Assembly (NCBI RefSeq): GCF_041468085.1 | Contig: NZ_CP121017.1 | Location: 1-64,000, forward strand | Direction of reading: 5' to 3' | Source of the DNA: Tistrella mobilis | Lineage (GTDB): Bacteria; Pseudomonadota; Alphaproteobacteria; Tistrellales; Tistrellaceae | DNA: 64,000 nt | Shown: piece after piece, positions 14,581 through 22,622 of the stretch | How the letters are laid out: each line of letters opens with the position of its first letter | Numbering within the stretch: position 1 is the stretch's first letter | Program-made: the position numbers and the translations under genes | The notes under the pieces: model-generated | What the model was told of the DNA's origin: nothing | Databases searched by the model: none | Seen by the model: the letters and a program-made list of their open reading frames with translations, nothing else

Positions 14581-15798
14581 TCAGCCTTGCGTGCTCTGCG
14601 TTGGCTTCGAGAAATGCACATCCTCGGGCTTCAGCCCGTAGAAGCGCATGGCATTGGGGCCGAAGATCAGGTCCTTATGCGCATCGGGCACGTCGTCGCG
14701 CTCGCGGATCGAGCCGAAGGCCTCCCCCAGCTTGCCGCCCGCATAGTGGGTGTGCGGGAAGTCCGCGGCTCCCAGAATGCGATCGGCACCGATCAGATCG
14801 ACGAAGGCCGGCAGGTTGGCCTCGTCACCCTCGACGGTGAAGTAGATCTCGCGCTCGCGCAGATAGTCGATCGGTGCCTTTTCCGCCGGCCAGACCTCGG
14901 CCGCGGGTGTCACCCGCCACTTGTCCATCCGGTCGAGCACGGTGGGGAACCAGCTGGCGCCACCTTCCAGGAAGCCGACCTTCAGCGACTTGAAGCGATC
15001 GAGGATGCCGCCGCCCAGGAAGCTGAAGAAGCCGAAGACGATGGTCATCTCGAAATTGAGGATGAAGGCTGCAGCCGGGCTGTCGAGCCCTTCGCCGATG
15101 CCGTCATGGGCCCAGCCGACATGGACGCAGATCGGCAGGCCGACCTCTTCCGCTGCTGCCCAGACCGGATCGAACCGGCGATCATGCAGCAGAACCGATC
15201 CGACCGTGCCCAGCACCATCAGGGAGGTCGCCCCCAGGGCCTTGGCGCGATGCACCTCCTTCACCGCCTGATCGGGCAGGCGCATCGGCAGAAGTGCCGC
15301 CCATTTCAGCCGGGTGGGCTTCTTGGCGCAGGTTTCGGCCATCCAGCTGTTATACGATCGCATCAGCGCCGCCTCGAACAGCGGATCGCGGGTCAGCGGC
15401 TGGAGGAAAAGGGTCGAGTAGATCGTCGCCACATCCAGCTGAATCTCGTCCATCTTCGCGCAATAGGCGTCGACGTCGAGAATGCCCTGGATGGCGGTGC
15501 TGACCGGCTTCAGCTTCGCATAGTCGGTGACGATCGGGCTGGCATGACAGGACGCCTGATAGCCCTGCATCTTGGGGCGCATCTCGCCATCGATCAGCCA
15601 GGCATAGTTGCGCTGGGTTCGATGGGCGATCATGTCGCCGATATGGACGATCTTGGGCCGCCGGTGCCAGTAGGCACGGTCCAGATAATCGAAGATGCCG
15701 TCGTGATCCTCAATGTGAGAATCGGCATCGATGAAGGGATGTTTTTTCTCGGCCGACGCGAAAGCGCCACGCCGGTTCGGAACGGACTGATAGGTCAT
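14581..15798 (-). CDS. Amidohydrolase-2 family metal-dependent hydrolase/decarboxylase
   Basis: A 405-residue TIM-barrel amidohydrolase of the ACMSD-like (Amidohydro_2) group, which includes non-oxidative decarboxylases and hydrolases. FIDADSHIEDHDG near residue 22 gives the beta-1 metal motif, in this case D-x-D-x-H. CVHVGWAHDG near 212 gives the next metal histidine, and ILGAADFPHTHY near 326 supplies the late catalytic Asp. FGFFSFLGGGILDRFKSLK is the family helix before the LEGG motif. It is divergent from the LeuA-like/YrdC-like/diiron operon, with an inverted repeat 40 bases upstream of its start, so it may act in the same pathway. The substrate is unknown. Confidence 0.82.
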   Translation of the reverse strand: MTYQSVPNRRGAFASAEKKHPFIDADSHIEDHDGIFDYLDRAYWHRRPKIVHIGDMIAHRTQRNYAWLIDGEMRPKMQGYQASCHASPIVTDYAKLKPVSTAIQGILDVDAYCAKMDEIQLDVATIYSTLFLQPLTRDPLFEAALMRSYNSWMAETCAKKPTRLKWAALLPMRLPDQAVKEVHRAKALGATSLMVLGTVGSVLLHDRRFDPVWAAAEEVGLPICVHVGWAHDGIGEGLDSPAAAFILNFEMTIVFGFFSFLGGGILDRFKSLKVGFLEGGASWFPTVLDRMDKWRVTPAAEVWPAEKAPIDYLREREIYFTVEGDEANLPAFVDLIGADRILGAADFPHTHYAGGKLGEAFGSIRERDDVPDAHKDLIFGPNAMRFYGLKPEDVHFSKPTQSTQG

Positions 15799-15837
15799 CG
15801 GGCTGCTCCGCCGTGCTGCCTGCCTGAAATGGCAAAT

Positions 15838-16024
15838 GTCTCATTCTGCGAGACGATTTCGGGCGATCCACCATTGCGTGATATTGGCCGCCCTGTCCTA
15901 GCCAAAAATGAGCACCGAAAACCGGCTTGTCAATTTTTGCGATCTATTCTGCCGTAAATAATCGCCGCTACCGCGATATCTCCGGACCTTGGCGGGGAAT
16001 GTCTCGTTATATGATACTTACGCA
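15838..16024. promoter_or_regulatory. Regulatory region of the divergent amidohydrolase/LeuA-like genes
   Basis: The 642-base gap from 15799 to 16440 holds no credible gene. It contains GTCTC-N7-GAGAC at 15838-15854, followed by GATTTCG, and GTCTCG...GATACTTACGCA at 16001-16024. Both match motifs at 11987-12053 in sequence, spacing and order. AT-rich sequence (about 15895-16090) between and around them is a likely promoter zone. The first repeat lies 40 bases upstream of the amidohydrolase start, a position suited to repression. Confidence 0.6.
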
Positions 16025-16440
16025 GACAAATTGCTCGCAAAGGTTGAGAAAACGGGTTGCCGGTTAGATAGCGATGTTTTAGGGTCTTCCAACTGATGGT
16101 AGATAATCCGTCAGGATAGTCATCGGTGGGAACGATCGCCAGCGGCATTGCACCGGCACAAAGCCGGGCGAGATCGCGCCGGAAGGGACGGCGGCTGGTG
16201 GCGGAACCAGGGCAAGTGGCGCAGGCGATGCGGCGGGCAAGCCGGCTTTGTCTGCGAAGTGGGGCAGTCGCGAACGGGGGGCCGGCGGGTACTGATCTGC
16301 CGGCGTGAAGACGCAGACCGGATGTGAAGCGCGCAGCGGCAGGTCGCCGCCACGCGCAGTGGGTGAGCCATTGCCTGCGGTCCGGTTTGAGGATCAACCC
16401 TGATGGCACGCGACCTGTTCCTTCAAAGGGAGCATGTCCG

Positions 16441-17646
16441 ATGCATCACGATCTTCCGACCGTCGCGGCCAGCGGGTTTCGGACAGCCAGACTGGTTGAC
16501 GCTTCTCTTGCCGACGGCCGCGGTGCGACGGCACCGACGGCGAAGCGGCTGGATATCCTGCTCGCTCTCGACGATCTGGGCATTGATGCGGCGCTGATCG
16601 GTTATCCGGCGGCCCGGCCTGCGGATCTGGCCCTGCTGGAGGCCAGTCGTGGACGTTGCCGGCAGGTGGCCCGCATGGTCTGCACCGCGCTGGCCGATGC
16701 GCCGGTTCTGGCGGATCTGCTGGGCCGCACCGGACCGACCGAAAGTGGGCCTCCTGTCGAGGTCGTGCTGGAATGCGGCACGGACCCGCGTCTGGCAGAG
16801 GGGGGGGATCCGGTGGCGCTGCTGACCGGCGCAATCATCCGTCTGGCGCCCCGGGCACCCGTCTGGGTAGAGCTTGCGGCGATTGCTGCAGCCGCGCCCG
16901 AAATGCTGCGGAGTCTGGTTCATGCCGCCCTTGCCGCTGGCGCCCGGGGGCTGATCCTTGCCGATACCACCGGCCGGATGCTGCCGGCCGAGACGGCGGC
17001 CACGCTCGGCATGCTGCGGGCGATCACCGGCCCGACGATCCCGGTGATCGTGGCGCCGGCCGACGATCTGGGCCTTGCCACCGCGAATGCGTTGGCCGGG
17101 CTTGCCGCCGGTGCGGATGGGGTGTTGGGCGCCATTGGCGGTTTGGGGGAGCGGGCCGGTCTGGTACCGATCGAGGAGGTAGCGACCGCGATCCGCTATC
17201 GCCCCGATCACGTCCGACTGGACCATGCGATCGATCTTGCGGCCCTGGTCCGCACCGGCATGGCAATCGCCGAAAGGCTCTCCGTCGATCTGGGGCGTAA
17301 CAAGGCGCTGCTCGGCGATTACGTCTTCGGTACGGCGGCGGGGCTGCATCAGCACGGGCTGCTCAACCACCCGATCACCTACGAATATCTCGACCCGGCG
17401 GATTTCGGCCGTGAGCGGCGGATCCTGATCGGTCGCCATTCGGGGCGTGCGGTGCTGCGCGCCCGGCTGACCGAGGCCGGAATCAATCTGGAGCCGGCAG
17501 GGCTGGAGGCCGTCTATCAGGCGGTGATGCGCAGCGCCGATCCGGAACGGTTTAACGACACGGCCGAACTGGTCGCGCTCCACCGCCGGTTGTCGACCGA
17601 CGATGCGCTGGCAGGCCCTGTCGTCCACGTCAGTCAGGGGGCATGA
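16441..17646 (+). CDS. DRE-TIM metallolyase-like protein lacking active-site residues
   Basis: A 401-residue homologue of 2-isopropylmalate/homocitrate synthases (LeuA/NifV). The fold markers are clear: ILADTTGRMLP, DDLGLATANALAGLAAGADG, GGLGERAG and ERRILIGRHSGRAVLRARL. Active-site positions have changed. The family motif D-x-T-L-R-D-G reads D20-A-S-L-A24-D25-G26, so the catalytic Arg is Ala. The metal-binding H-x-H-N-D reads A205-P-A207-D-D, so both His are Ala. A normal metal-dependent Claisen condensation is therefore unlikely; a binding or scaffold role, or different chemistry, is possible. The ATG at 16441 has AAAGGGAG upstream. The stop overlaps the next gene by 4 bases. Confidence 0.8.
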   Translation: MHHDLPTVAASGFRTARLVDASLADGRGATAPTAKRLDILLALDDLGIDAALIGYPAARPADLALLEASRGRCRQVARMVCTALADAPVLADLLGRTGPTESGPPVEVVLECGTDPRLAEGGDPVALLTGAIIRLAPRAPVWVELAAIAAAAPEMLRSLVHAALAAGARGLILADTTGRMLPAETAATLGMLRAITGPTIPVIVAPADDLGLATANALAGLAAGADGVLGAIGGLGERAGLVPIEEVATAIRYRPDHVRLDHAIDLAALVRTGMAIAERLSVDLGRNKALLGDYVFGTAAGLHQHGLLNHPITYEYLDPADFGRERRILIGRHSGRAVLRARLTEAGINLEPAGLEAVYQAVMRSADPERFNDTAELVALHRRLSTDDALAGPVVHVSQGA

Positions 17647-18344
17647 GGACGATGGAAGTAGCACTTGGCGTACCCGATGACGAGGTCGTCGACGATGCCG
17701 AGGTGGAACATGTGTTGGGGGTCATCCGCGGCGGCGGCCTGACCTTGCTCAAAGCCAATATCGGCTATGGGCTGATCGGCCATACCGAACGCTCTATCCG
17801 CCGGATGTACGAGGTGAAGGGCCGGCCGCTGACCAATCCCTGCATCACCATCGGCAGCATCGATGTGCTGCGCGATCTGGTGATCATGGAGGATCCCCGG
17901 CTGCTGGACTGGATTGCCGAGGTATCCGAGATGACGACGCTGGCGGTGATCAACCGGCTCAATCCCGAAAGCCGGCTGTTTGCAAAGCTGACGCCTTATG
18001 TCCGTCGGCAGTGTAGCGAGAACGGCACGGTCGCGACCTTCATTCGGACCGGCGCATTCATCGAGCGGCTGGTCGAGAAGGCGCTGGCCGAGGATGTCCT
18101 GCTGGTCGGATCTTCGGGCAACATCTCATCCACGGGCAATCGCTACACGTTTGCCGACGTCCAGCCGCAGGTTCTGGAGGGCGTGGACTTTTGGCACGAG
18201 AAAGGTGATGCCAAGTATCTCAACGACCAGAAACTGGCGACCAGCATCGTCAACCTGACCAACTTCACCTTCCGTCGCAAGGGCGTGAACCACGAATACA
18301 TCGCGGCCAGCCTCGACGCCTTCAGATCGCGAACCGGTCTCTGA
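17643..18344 (+). CDS. Sua5/YciO/YrdC-like domain protein
   Basis: A 233-residue protein of the Sua5/YrdC fold. True members make threonylcarbamoyl-AMP for tRNA t6A; related domains serve in carbamoyl transfer. The conserved MYEVKGRPLTNP (KGRP at 59-62) and SSGNISSTGN motifs are present. The loop that normally reads P-T-(D/E)-x-V-Y-G is KANIGYG (37-43), so threonine recognition has probably changed. Its ATG overlaps the stop of the LeuA-like gene (ATGA), indicating tight coupling. It is unlikely to be the housekeeping TsaC. A substrate-activation role in the pathway of its neighbours is inference. Confidence 0.8.
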   Translation: MRTMEVALGVPDDEVVDDAEVEHVLGVIRGGGLTLLKANIGYGLIGHTERSIRRMYEVKGRPLTNPCITIGSIDVLRDLVIMEDPRLLDWIAEVSEMTTLAVINRLNPESRLFAKLTPYVRRQCSENGTVATFIRTGAFIERLVEKALAEDVLLVGSSGNISSTGNRYTFADVQPQVLEGVDFWHEKGDAKYLNDQKLATSIVNLTNFTFRRKGVNHEYIAASLDAFRSRTGL

Positions 18345-19987: not shown

Positions 19988-21178
19988 TCAGCTCCTTCCC
20001 GTGGCAGGATCGGCCGAGAGCCGGCCATAGACCGCATAGAGCAGCAGGGTGACCACCAGCAGCACCAGGCCGAGTGCGCCGGCCATGCCCCAATTGGCCG
20101 AGCCGGTGGCATAGAAGGCGATGACCGAGCTGATCATCTGGTCGCCCGGGCCGCCGATCAGGGCCGGGGTGATGTAGTAGCCGATGGCCGTCATGAACAC
20201 GAGCAGCGCGCCCGAGGCGAGGCCGCGGAAGGCGAGCGGGAACACCACGCGCAGGAAGGCCCGGAGCGGGTTGGCCCCCAGAGAGGCTGCGGCCGGAACC
20301 AGATTTTTGGGAATGGCGATCAGCACGCTGTAGATCGGCAGCACCATGAAGGGCAGCAGGACATGGGTCATTGCAATGACCACGCCCAGACGGTTGAAGA
20401 TCATCGGCACCGGTGCGCCGACAATGCCCAGACCGAGCAGAACTTCGTTGATCAGCCCCTTTTCCTGCAGGATCACGAACCAGGCCGCGGTCCGCACCAG
20501 CAGAGACGTCCAGAGCGGCAGCAGTACGGCGGCGAGCAGCAGGTTGCGTTTCCAGCCCTCGGCCGCCGCGATCAGCATGGCATAGGGAAAGCCGATCAGG
20601 GCGCAGGCGATGGTAACCAGGGCCGCAATCCAGAAAGTGCGCAGCATGATCACCCGGTTGGCCGAGGCCTCGTCGGCCATCGACACCACCTCGCCCGCGG
20701 CGTCGCGCTTCAGATCGACAGCGGCGAGCAGGTGGCGATCGGTATAGGGGGAGAGTGCGCCGGCGATCGCCTGCCAGTAGCGGGGTTGATCCCATCGGCG
20801 GTCGACCTCGGCCAGGTCGGCCGGCATGTCGCCATCCTCGATGGCCCGGATGGTCTTCGACATCAGGGTGCGGAAGCCGGACTGGGCGCTGTTCAGCCGG
20901 CGGACCATGTCGCCCACCGCCTGGGTGTCGGTCGCCGCCTTCAGATCTTCGACGATGGCCGCTTTCATCTCGGGCGTCGGCGGCGACTGACGGTCCCAGT
21001 CGGCGGCGACCTCGGCGGTGCGGGGCAGAATGCGCAGCACCGCCGGATCCGACACCGCCTGTGACATCATCGTGGCCAGTGGCCAGAGGAAGAAGACACC
21101 CAGGAAAAGCAGCAGCGGCGCCAGCAGCAGTGCTGCGGCGCCCTTCGACCCGCCGCCGCTTGTATGAATTCCACTCAT
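19988..21178 (-). CDS. Spermidine/putrescine-type ABC permease (PotB-like), enlarged
   Basis: A 396-residue permease, about 100 residues longer than typical PotB. The extra part is a hydrophilic insert (roughly residues 42-165) between helices 1 and 2, expected on the periplasmic side, a feature of one permease subgroup. The EAA loop is AAASLGANPLRAFLRVVFPL. The start at 21178 has AGGAGA eight bases upstream. The IS110-family element lies directly upstream and separates it from the ATPase gene, so expression may depend on read-through or on a new promoter. Confidence 0.88.
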   Translation of the reverse strand: MSGIHTSGGGSKGAAALLLAPLLLFLGVFFLWPLATMMSQAVSDPAVLRILPRTAEVAADWDRQSPPTPEMKAAIVEDLKAATDTQAVGDMVRRLNSAQSGFRTLMSKTIRAIEDGDMPADLAEVDRRWDQPRYWQAIAGALSPYTDRHLLAAVDLKRDAAGEVVSMADEASANRVIMLRTFWIAALVTIACALIGFPYAMLIAAAEGWKRNLLLAAVLLPLWTSLLVRTAAWFVILQEKGLINEVLLGLGIVGAPVPMIFNRLGVVIAMTHVLLPFMVLPIYSVLIAIPKNLVPAAASLGANPLRAFLRVVFPLAFRGLASGALLVFMTAIGYYITPALIGGPGDQMISSVIAFYATGSANWGMAGALGLVLLVVTLLLYAVYGRLSADPATGRS

Positions 21179-21324
21179 CGGGCCGTCTCCTGGTAGGATG
21201 TTTGGCCTGATAGCCGGGAGAGGGTCGCCGCGTTGCGCTCGAAGGATGATCTTCGTGCATGAGATTGGCGCCCTCGCCCGGTGCTTTTTGCCCGAACGGT
21301 ATCCGGCGGTGTCGTGGCGAGGGG

Positions 21325-21358
21325 GCGGATGACCGCCCCGATCGGGGCGGTCATCCGC
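21325..21358. repeat. Perfect 34-base palindrome in the IS110 leader
   Basis: Two 17-base arms (each starting GCGGATGACCGCCCC) are exact reverse complements with no spacer and centre CGATCG. It lies 66 bases upstream of the transposase start. It may form a stem of the bridge RNA, or a transcript-blocking hairpin that protects against read-through. Confidence 0.8.
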
Positions 21359-21423
21359 GCATGGACAAGCAGGGGCACGAGCACCGGCTCCGAGGCTTCC
21401 GGCTCATCCGCACGGGAGGCGCC

Positions 21424-22593
21424 ATGCAATTCGTCGGCATCGACATCGCGTCGGAAACCCATGTCTTCGCCATCCTTGATGCGGACGGCACGGTCCTGGC
21501 CAAACCCAAGCCGTTCACCGAAGACGCGGCCGGGCACGGCGCGTTGCTGGCCGCGCTGGCCCCGCCGGGTGAGGCGCTGGTGGTCATGGAGGCGACCGGG
21601 CATTACTGGAAGAACCTGTTCGCCGTGCTGGCGGCCAAGGGCTACGAGGTCGCCCTGATCAACCCGCTGCGCACCCACCGCTTCCAGGGCGAGAGCCTGG
21701 AGCGCACCAAGACCGACGCCATCGACGCCCTCGGCCTGGCCCGCTTCGGGCGGGAAAAGCGCCCCTCCCCGACCCGGCTGGGCAGCCGGGCCAGCGAGGA
21801 GCTGCGCGAACTGGTTCGCCACCGCGACCGGCTGCGCCAGGATTTCGACGACCGCGTCCGCCAGCTCCGCCGGCTGGTCGATCTCGGCTTCCCGGAATTC
21901 CGACGCTATGTCCGCACGCTCGACAGCATGCTGGCCACCGCCATCCTGGCGGAATACCCCACCGCCGAGGCCGTCGCCAAAGCCACGCCACGCCGGCTCG
22001 CCAAGCTGCGCTACGATGGCCGCCACGCCGTCGGAAGCGAACTGGCCGACCAGATCATCGCCGCGGCCAAGCGCTCGGTCGGCCAGCACCACGGCCCCGC
22101 CTACCGCGTCCAGGTCCGCGACATCTGTCAGGATCTCGATCTGTGGCGCCGCCGCTTGGCCGACCGTGACGACGACATCACCCGTCTGCTCGACGAGCAC
22201 GAGGTCGGCTCGCTGCTGACCTCCATCGACGGAATCGGTCCCAGCACCGCAGCACGCCTCATCGCCGAACTCGGCGATCCGGCCCGCTTCGACAGCCCCG
22301 CAGCCCTGGCAGCCTACGTCGGCGTCATCCCAGCCCTGCGCCACTCCGGAAAGCGCCGCCCCACCCGCGCCGGCATCACCCCGATCGGCAACGCGCGCCT
22401 GCGCACCGCCTTGTGGATGCCAACCCTCACCGCTGTCCGCCGAAACCCGTGGCTCAAAGCCTTCTACGACCGACTGCGCGCACAGGGAAAGCCACCAAAG
22501 CTCGCCCTCGTCGCCGCCATGCGAAAACTCCTCGTCGCCGTCTACGCCGTCGCCAAGGCTCGAAAACCCTTCGTGCCAAAGCTCGCCGACTGA
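21424..22593 (+). CDS. IS110-family transposase (bridge recombinase)
   Basis: A 389-residue recombinase. The N-terminal RuvC-like DEDD domain shows GIDIASETH (Asp-7), VVMEATGHYWK (Glu near 59) and KTDAIDALGLARF. The C-terminal Transposase_20 domain has a helix-hairpin-helix (SIDGIGPSTAARLIAELGD) and AYVGVIPALRHSGKRRP, which holds the catalytic serine region. The ATG at 21424 matches family starts; the frame is intact from end to end, so the element may be active. Earlier in-frame starts (from 21259) would run through the palindrome and are rejected. Confidence 0.93.
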   Translation: MQFVGIDIASETHVFAILDADGTVLAKPKPFTEDAAGHGALLAALAPPGEALVVMEATGHYWKNLFAVLAAKGYEVALINPLRTHRFQGESLERTKTDAIDALGLARFGREKRPSPTRLGSRASEELRELVRHRDRLRQDFDDRVRQLRRLVDLGFPEFRRYVRTLDSMLATAILAEYPTAEAVAKATPRRLAKLRYDGRHAVGSELADQIIAAAKRSVGQHHGPAYRVQVRDICQDLDLWRRRLADRDDDITRLLDEHEVGSLLTSIDGIGPSTAARLIAELGDPARFDSPAALAAYVGVIPALRHSGKRRPTRAGITPIGNARLRTALWMPTLTAVRRNPWLKAFYDRLRAQGKPPKLALVAAMRKLLVAVYAVAKARKPFVPKLAD

Positions 22594-22622
22594 AAAAAGC
22601 GCTTGCTCAGCGTGACGGTATC

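Follow-up and report, generated by a model that had tools for sequence, protein, structure and literature searches.

P0001, encoded in the 64,000-nucleotide stretch analysed here (the window; positions 1 to 64,000 of contig NZ_CP121017.1 of Tistrella mobilis), has a known fold and belongs to a known family; what is new is the combination of a LeuA-type pseudoenzyme kept by selection and a paralogue in the same genome, L003, whose degeneration is reciprocal. By homology, P0001 appears to be a pseudoenzyme with respect to Claisen condensation that is being maintained, not a decaying gene. The best reading of the two sequences, which we offer tentatively, is that P0001 may lend its C-terminal lid to the barrel of L003 in a heterodimer. 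The features of P0001 are as follows.

16441..17646, + strand: P0001, LeuA-like pseudoenzyme of 401 aa, present in Tistrella; identified by domain matches, lost residues and dN/dS
16510..16515, + strand: A24-D25, LADG where the family has LRDG; metal Asp kept but catalytic Arg gone, corresponding to R89-D90 of the B. juncea MAMS 6e1j
17053..17061, + strand: A205-P-A207 in place of the metal HxH, corresponding to H288/H290 of 6e1j
17290..17475, + strand: retained core lid, residues 284–345, NKALLG..F..AGLHQHGLLN..TYEYLDP..FG..LIGRHSGR; 6/26 conserved columns after residue 283 lost

The open reading frame, its frame and its length agree with the original prediction, and a Shine–Dalgarno-like AAGGGAG stops 8 nt short of the ATG. 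P0001 has the barrel and post-barrel domain of the DRE-TIM/HMGL-like fold, with both profiles above the gathering score (PF00682, HMGL-like, 81.3 bits against a cut-off of 29; PF22617, HCS_D2, 63.1 bits against 27). It matched 18 NCBIfam models, including LeuA and NifV, all far under the curated cut-offs: 152.8 versus 598.7 bits for LeuA 2-isopropylmalate synthase (TIGR00973) and 152.9 versus 462.9 bits for NifV homocitrate synthase (TIGR02660). Either of these enzyme names would be a wrong label for P0001, in which the residues of a competent DRE-TIM metallolyase (the LRDG Arg, the HxH pair and the SxE Glu) are A24, A205/A207 and I148. LeuA and MAMS (3rmj, 6e1j) share the fold, the domain order and the lid motif with the His388/Tyr399 equivalents and are, along with homocitrate synthase 6ktq, the top sequence and structure matches of P0001; unlike them, P0001 has no catalytic Arg, Glu or Gln, no metal His pair and no metal-site Asn, and unlike LeuA it is shorter and has no C-terminal regulatory domain. 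The structural matches rest on a weak predicted model (mean pLDDT 57, most of the lid <50) and on an input alignment already containing LeuA relatives. Of the look into the former metal pocket that had been proposed at the outset, the model delivered the barrel strands, while the geometry of the pocket is not readable at that confidence. In the viral search, P0001 as a single query found no relative and an alignment query found six distant ones. In literature that excluded most subscription journals, no paper was found to link the idea of a pseudoenzyme to isopropylmalate synthase, to homocitrate synthase or to DRE-TIM.

The original prediction named Ala-24, Ala-205 and Ala-207 as replacements of the Arg and both His residues; this is true but understated, as the metal-site Asn (N241L), the catalytic Glu (E148I) and the acetyl-CoA Gln (deleted) are also lost. 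The R24, D25, H205, H207 and N241 columns, the last of which we take to be a metal ligand position, are intact in 48/48 homologues and read A, D, A, A and L in P0001; the SxE Glu is intact in 45/48 (counts made after exclusion of four Tistrella orthologue rows, open reading frames <280 aa and matches above E 1e-15). Aligned to 6e1j, P0001 lacks equivalents of R89, Q93 (within a 3-residue deletion), E227, H288 and H290 and retains those of D90, T257, H388 and Y399; it keeps D25, T176, H303, Y314 and the GER motif. In the available text of one report on MAMS, D90, H288 and H290 are the metal ligands, changing R89 to A, K or Q abolishes activity, and the activity of E227A and E227D is undetectable (PMC11532901). 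Judged from its sequence, P0001 alone should be unable to run the metal-dependent Claisen condensation of the family. A true HxH elsewhere in the protein would have told against the first reading. No displaced metal HxH was found, and the one candidate, H303-Q-H305, was ruled out, aligning with the lid motif GIHQ.G that intact LeuA proteins carry in addition to their own metal HxH.

The codons of A24, A205 and A207 are GCC, GCG and GCC. Turning any of them into an Arg or His codon takes two or more substitutions, and one sequencing error therefore cannot explain the replacements; the same alanines occur in the Tistrella orthologues L007, L008 and L009. Because Ala is common in P0001 (19% against a homologue median of 13%), the choice of this residue at the lost sites is partly a matter of composition. 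The losses extend beyond the pocket to other conserved columns: in the alignment with 48 family members, P0001 keeps 52 of the 69 columns conserved at ≥93% and loses 17. Preferential loss of active-site residues was not detected (4/8 catalytic versus 13/61 other conserved columns, one-sided p = 0.10), the eight being those catalytic residues from the MAMS literature that have a place in the set of 69 columns.

P0001 has a 96% identical orthologue (L007) in T. mobilis KA081020-065, and copies at 96% were present in both other Tistrella genomes searched (G001 and G002); L007 and the G002 copy, L009, appear to be from the same chromosome, and the distinct Tistrella genomes thus number three, window included. 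The losses are common to all three, and the situation that would have told against the original prediction, relatives retaining the His and Arg residues with this copy unique, was not encountered. The expected conserved clade of Ala variants with the same neighbours was recovered in Tistrella, with the same downstream genes, but in the genomes searched it is only one genus deep. The best match outside Tistrella was 36% identical, in an open frame of LeuA size (398 phylum genomes, matches examined down to 1e-39); whole-genome searches covered Pseudomonadota, and the contig-wide scan used near-exact peptide patterns.

Pairwise dN/dS among the Tistrella genomes was 0.053–0.080 for P0001, 0.027–0.045 for the next gene downstream, P0002, and 0.026–0.046 for the one after it, P0003. 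In the same comparison, neighbouring genes of the window gave 0.014–0.114, a range calculated without PBP1A (G002) and RlmJ (both genomes), which were out of frame, with identity about 0.4 and internal stops. The core lid of P0001 (residues 284–345) had 0 nonsynonymous and 11 synonymous differences from each of G001 and G002. Compared with G002, the N-half of the barrel had 10 nonsynonymous and 34 synonymous differences and the C-half 2 and 32; pN/pS was 0.03 in the C-half, which includes the empty metal-site strand, 0.12 in the N-half and 0.42 in the C-terminal tail. The absence of internal stops, the dN/dS of 0.05–0.08 and the unchanged core lid bear out the original view that decay is unlikely. 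The pseudoenzyme reading is likewise supported, the fold being kept, the catalytic residues lost and the gene maintained by selection.

The genome of the window encodes five further family matches, among them the following.

G000:C4:1592865-1594076, − strand: L003, LeuA-family paralogue of 404 aa, barrel motifs intact, lid eroded

Among columns conserved at ≥90% in 47 reference rows, from which P0001 and L003 were both excluded, P0001 lost 29/68 in the barrel and 6/26 in the lid, whereas L003 lost 6/68 in the barrel and 17/26 in the lid (Fisher p = 2.4e-5 for the contrast, a post hoc test, since the oddity of L003 had been noticed before it was run). At this threshold the lid bias within L003 was strong (p = 7e-8) and the barrel bias within P0001 was not significant (p = 0.10), so that the contrast rests mainly on L003. 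The fully invariant columns showed the same pattern, with 8/28 barrel and 0/6 lid columns lost in P0001 and 0/28 and 4/6, respectively, in L003. The one reference row of the 47 to come near such losses was the long-branch L004 (22 barrel and 11 lid losses), other rows having at most 12 and 5; over 24 settings (thresholds of 85, 90, 95 and 100%, boundaries at 275, 283 and 290, with or without L004), the p value of the reciprocal loss ranged from 7e-6 to 0.012. L003 is thus a paralogue degenerate in the domain complementary to the losses of P0001, as would be looked for in complementary subunits. The original prediction had suggested a binding, scaffold or new catalytic role; with this paralogue, which it had not seen, the specific role of lid donor is favoured over that of a general scaffold.

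Differences among the Tistrella genomes show a similar split for part of the lid. In L003, the lid (residues 300–351) had 7.7 nonsynonymous and 8.3 synonymous differences from G002 and 5 and 8 from G001, and the barrel had 9 and 44 from G002. The constraint on the core lid differed between P0001 and L003 (p = 0.008 for G002 and p = 0.04 for G001), with a boundary at residue 345 that was set after the variable positions of P0001, 346 among them, had already been seen. Barrel and lid differed within L003 (p = 0.017) and did not differ significantly within P0001 (p = 0.35). The lid contrast vanished when the C-terminal tails were counted (P0001 284–401, L003 300–379; p = 0.76 and 1.0), so that, as evidence for the split, it reaches no further than the conserved lid core. 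The dN/dS of L003 over its first 375 codons was 0.066–0.097. In a search of 250 class genomes, only those of Tistrella had high-similarity matches to L003; the best match beyond the genus was 38% identical, in a LeuA-size open frame. P0001 and L003 are both present in 3/3 Tistrella genomes. L003 has a His aligned with H303 and a Trp in the Y314 column; given the retained His, the L003 lid may have changed without being dead. By eye, formate-dehydrogenase-like and sulfhydrylase-like genes surround L003. In its orthologue from G002 (L105, T. mobilis KA081020-065), nearly every residue after 379 differs and the tail is longer, as if read in another frame.

The closest relatives found for both proteins outside Tistrella, and for both the best matches in the plasmid collection, are three Streptomyces pyruvate carboxyltransferases (32–37% identical to P0001 and 42–43% to L003), with which P0001 and L003 group in the tree with support of 99/98. 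A sisterhood of P0001 and L003 was not recovered within this group; a tree constrained to join the two passed the AU test (p-AU 0.137) in the presence of long branches, and a C-terminal RFND..LVAL stretch is common to both and absent from the three Streptomyces relatives. The Streptomyces proteins, which are plasmid-borne and annotated as pyruvate carboxyltransferase (WP_331729259.1, WP_014043518.1 and WP_331742716.1), are about 400 aa long like P0001 but, unlike it, have both the active site and the lid motifs intact. Two of the three genes adjoin NRPS, leuC, leuD, aminotransferase and dehydrogenase genes, and in an incomplete gene table no annotated YrdC or HDO gene was found within 9 kb of any of them. 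In the Streptomyces plasmid NRPS clusters L058 and L059 8539–14115, the intact LeuA-like gene stands with leuC, leuD, aminotransferase and dehydrogenase genes; this set is likely to be a chain-extension cassette for an unusual amino acid.

Considering these results, we propose the following scenario for P0001 and L003. L003 would contribute a barrel with an intact 2-oxo acid and metal site, and P0001 would contribute the C-terminal lid, bearing the general base (a His and a Tyr) as well as a portion of the CoA site. In LeuA of M. tuberculosis, His379 and Tyr410 come from the adjacent subunit. The C-terminal domain of one monomer contributes to the CoA site of its neighbour (PMC8468904), a shared-lid arrangement documented for MAMS that we infer to hold for P0001 and L003. 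With lid and CoA site contributed across subunits, a P0001–L003 dimer would have one complete active site, the reverse pairing of P0001 barrel and L003 lid being dead. The pair would join an acyl-CoA to a 2-oxo acid by condensation, and the product might be modified through the YrdC-like and HDO genes that share an operon with P0001. In its full form, the proposal takes P0001 and L003 for duplicated LeuA-type enzymes, each having lost the half still present in the other. A working active site would then exist only in the heterodimer, with the pseudoenzyme giving the lid and the general base, a case within a single genus of complementary degeneration at a site shared between subunits; this fuller history we hold at somewhat less than an even chance. 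Several findings count against a heterodimer: the genes lie about 1.57 Mb apart on one contig, with L003 among formate-dehydrogenase-like and sulfhydrylase-like genes, and their co-expression is an assumption; the sisterhood of the two proteins was not recovered; the reciprocal test is post hoc and the constraint contrast depends on the segment; L003 retains the His in the H303 column; L003 of G002 reads differently after residue 379; and the constrained C-half of the P0001 barrel may have a use of its own.

The clostridial homocitrate synthase is split as NifV-alpha/NifV-omega, one LeuA-family activity over two polypeptides; there a gene is cut in two, whereas P0001 and L003 are two full-length paralogues, each of which would have lost the half kept by the other. 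A second protein also enhances catalysis in the HisG(S) ATP phosphoribosyltransferase, where, in the available text of the report, the action of HisZ is described as allosteric (PMC9734150). That system has another fold, and P0001 would complete an active site, in contrast to the allosteric HisZ. If the P0001–L003 pair works as proposed, it would be a compact natural test of how duplicated shared-site homodimers become obligate heterodimers, and the half lost by each copy could be read from the two sequences.

P0001 may instead be a stand-alone pseudoenzyme of an operon with P0002 and P0003, its lid binding acyl-CoA or a related metabolite or the protein acting as a scaffold for the YrdC-like and HDO proteins, with no tie to L003; we consider this doubtful. 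The operon partners are as follows.

17643..18344, + strand: P0002, divergent Sua5/YciO/YrdC-like protein, PF01300 34.4 bits
18454..19134, + strand: P0003, heme-oxygenase-like diiron oxidase (HDO), CADD-related, PF14518 79.1 bits

The start of P0002 overlaps the stop of P0001 by 4 bp (ATGA), an overlap kept in L040–L042, G001 and G002 included. This coupled start and the identical gene order in three Tistrella genomes favour a function bound to the operon, as do the purifying selection on all three genes and the restriction of their close relatives to Tistrella among the genomes searched. Such a function leaves unexplained why the paralogue has lost the very domain that P0001 has kept. P0002 scored 20.9 bits against a cut-off of 123.2 for Sua5/TsaC threonylcarbamoyl-AMP synthase (TIGR00057); it keeps KxR and SSxN-type motifs and its N-terminal motif is unlike the TxTxYGL form. 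Relatives of P0002 at 24–28% occur in 12 other genomes (289 class genomes), and the plasmid and viral collections held one 24% plasmid relative. By eye, the P0002-like genes of L065 and L068 adjoin hydantoinase-, isochorismatase-like and PEP-mutase-like genes, and in Variovorax such genes lie near annotated isocitrate lyase/PEP mutase, CoA ligase and leuC/leuD-type genes; perhaps the P0002-like YrdC proteins have an uncharacterised carbamoyl-handling catabolic function. P0002-like genes occur as adjacent pairs in 4/12 fetched neighbourhoods (L062, L067, L070 and L071) and in Variovorax (L096 7205–8699).

P0003 scored 108.6 bits with TIGR04305, under the cut-off of 200, and alignment assigns E77/E78, H88, E142, H173, D177 and H180 as candidate metal ligands. 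P0003 shares the HDO fold family and metal ligands with CADD, whose sacrificial residues are given as Tyr27 and Lys152 in the available text of PMC11965152; at the aligned positions P0003 has Val and Met, unlike a CADD-type pABA synthase. At E 1e-20, the 289 class genomes gave P0003 matches in the 3 Tistrella genomes and nowhere else, and at 1e-15 the 398 phylum genomes gave the genome of the window and two 28% relatives; no relatives were found in the plasmid and viral collections. Among 14 neighbourhoods around P0002 and P0003 relatives, P0001 had one weak match (L063, E 7e-5). Synthesis of pABA by P0003 was rejected as the purpose of the operon, the sacrificial residues being absent and the genome having three PabB-like matches; none of these is over the curated cut-off, which only 4/14 control genomes pass. 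A role in anti-phage defence was also rejected, with no PADLOC match for four proteins.

A further reading, which we regard as unlikely, is that P0001 is a repurposed enzyme carrying out a metal-free reaction in its old pocket through Asp25, Thr176, His303 and Tyr314. These residues and the GER motif are retained, and the strong constraint on the C-half of the barrel (pN/pS 0.03) means that the pocket may still have a use; however, the catalytic Arg, Glu and Gln and 3/4 metal-site residues are gone, their replacements are mainly small or apolar, and from three close species one could not tell whether a new polar cluster is conserved. It is more improbable that P0001 is a regulatory partner of a normal LeuA-family enzyme such as L002, which looks like an ordinary 2-isopropylmalate synthase: the five other family matches in the genome and the dimeric state of the related MAMS would suit such a role, but the barrel and lid of L002 are intact, so that it needs no complement, and L002 falls outside the group containing P0001 and L003. 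Decay of P0001 into a pseudogene, or an artefact of sequencing or annotation, is scarcely credible, for although change is faster in the barrel N-half and in the C-terminal tail than in the rest (pN/pS 0.12 and 0.42), the changes are common to three genomes, there are no stops, dN/dS is 0.05–0.08 and residues 284–345 are without amino-acid change.

Upstream of the P0001 operon, the window contains the following features.

14581..15798, − strand: divergent Amidohydro_2 protein, PF04909 70.3 bits, sharing a 642-bp intergenic region with the operon
15837..15854, + strand: operator-like dyad TGTCTCATTCTGCGAGAC, also in the G001 and G002 alignments
16000..16017, + strand: second dyad TGTCTCGTTATATGATAC, in the same intergenic region

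From this common intergenic region, the amidohydrolase gene is possibly co-regulated with the P0001 operon; no amidohydrolase homologue was found at E 1e-5 beside P0002- or P0003-like genes in the loci checked. The region (15799–16440), with 91% identity to its counterparts in G001 and G002, contains two TGTCTC-N6-GAGAC-like dyads, possibly operators, the pattern having been derived post hoc from the two sites themselves. The available text of a report on tistrellabactin places the genes for this siderophore of T. mobilis on plasmid 2, not at the P0001 locus (PMC10391617).

Downstream, the stretch 21161–22621 lies between polyamine-type ABC permease and ABC ATPase genes and contains a transposase (21259–22593, + strand), which we take to be of the IS110 type. 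G001 and G002 lack this stretch at the corresponding position, which suggests a recent insertion.
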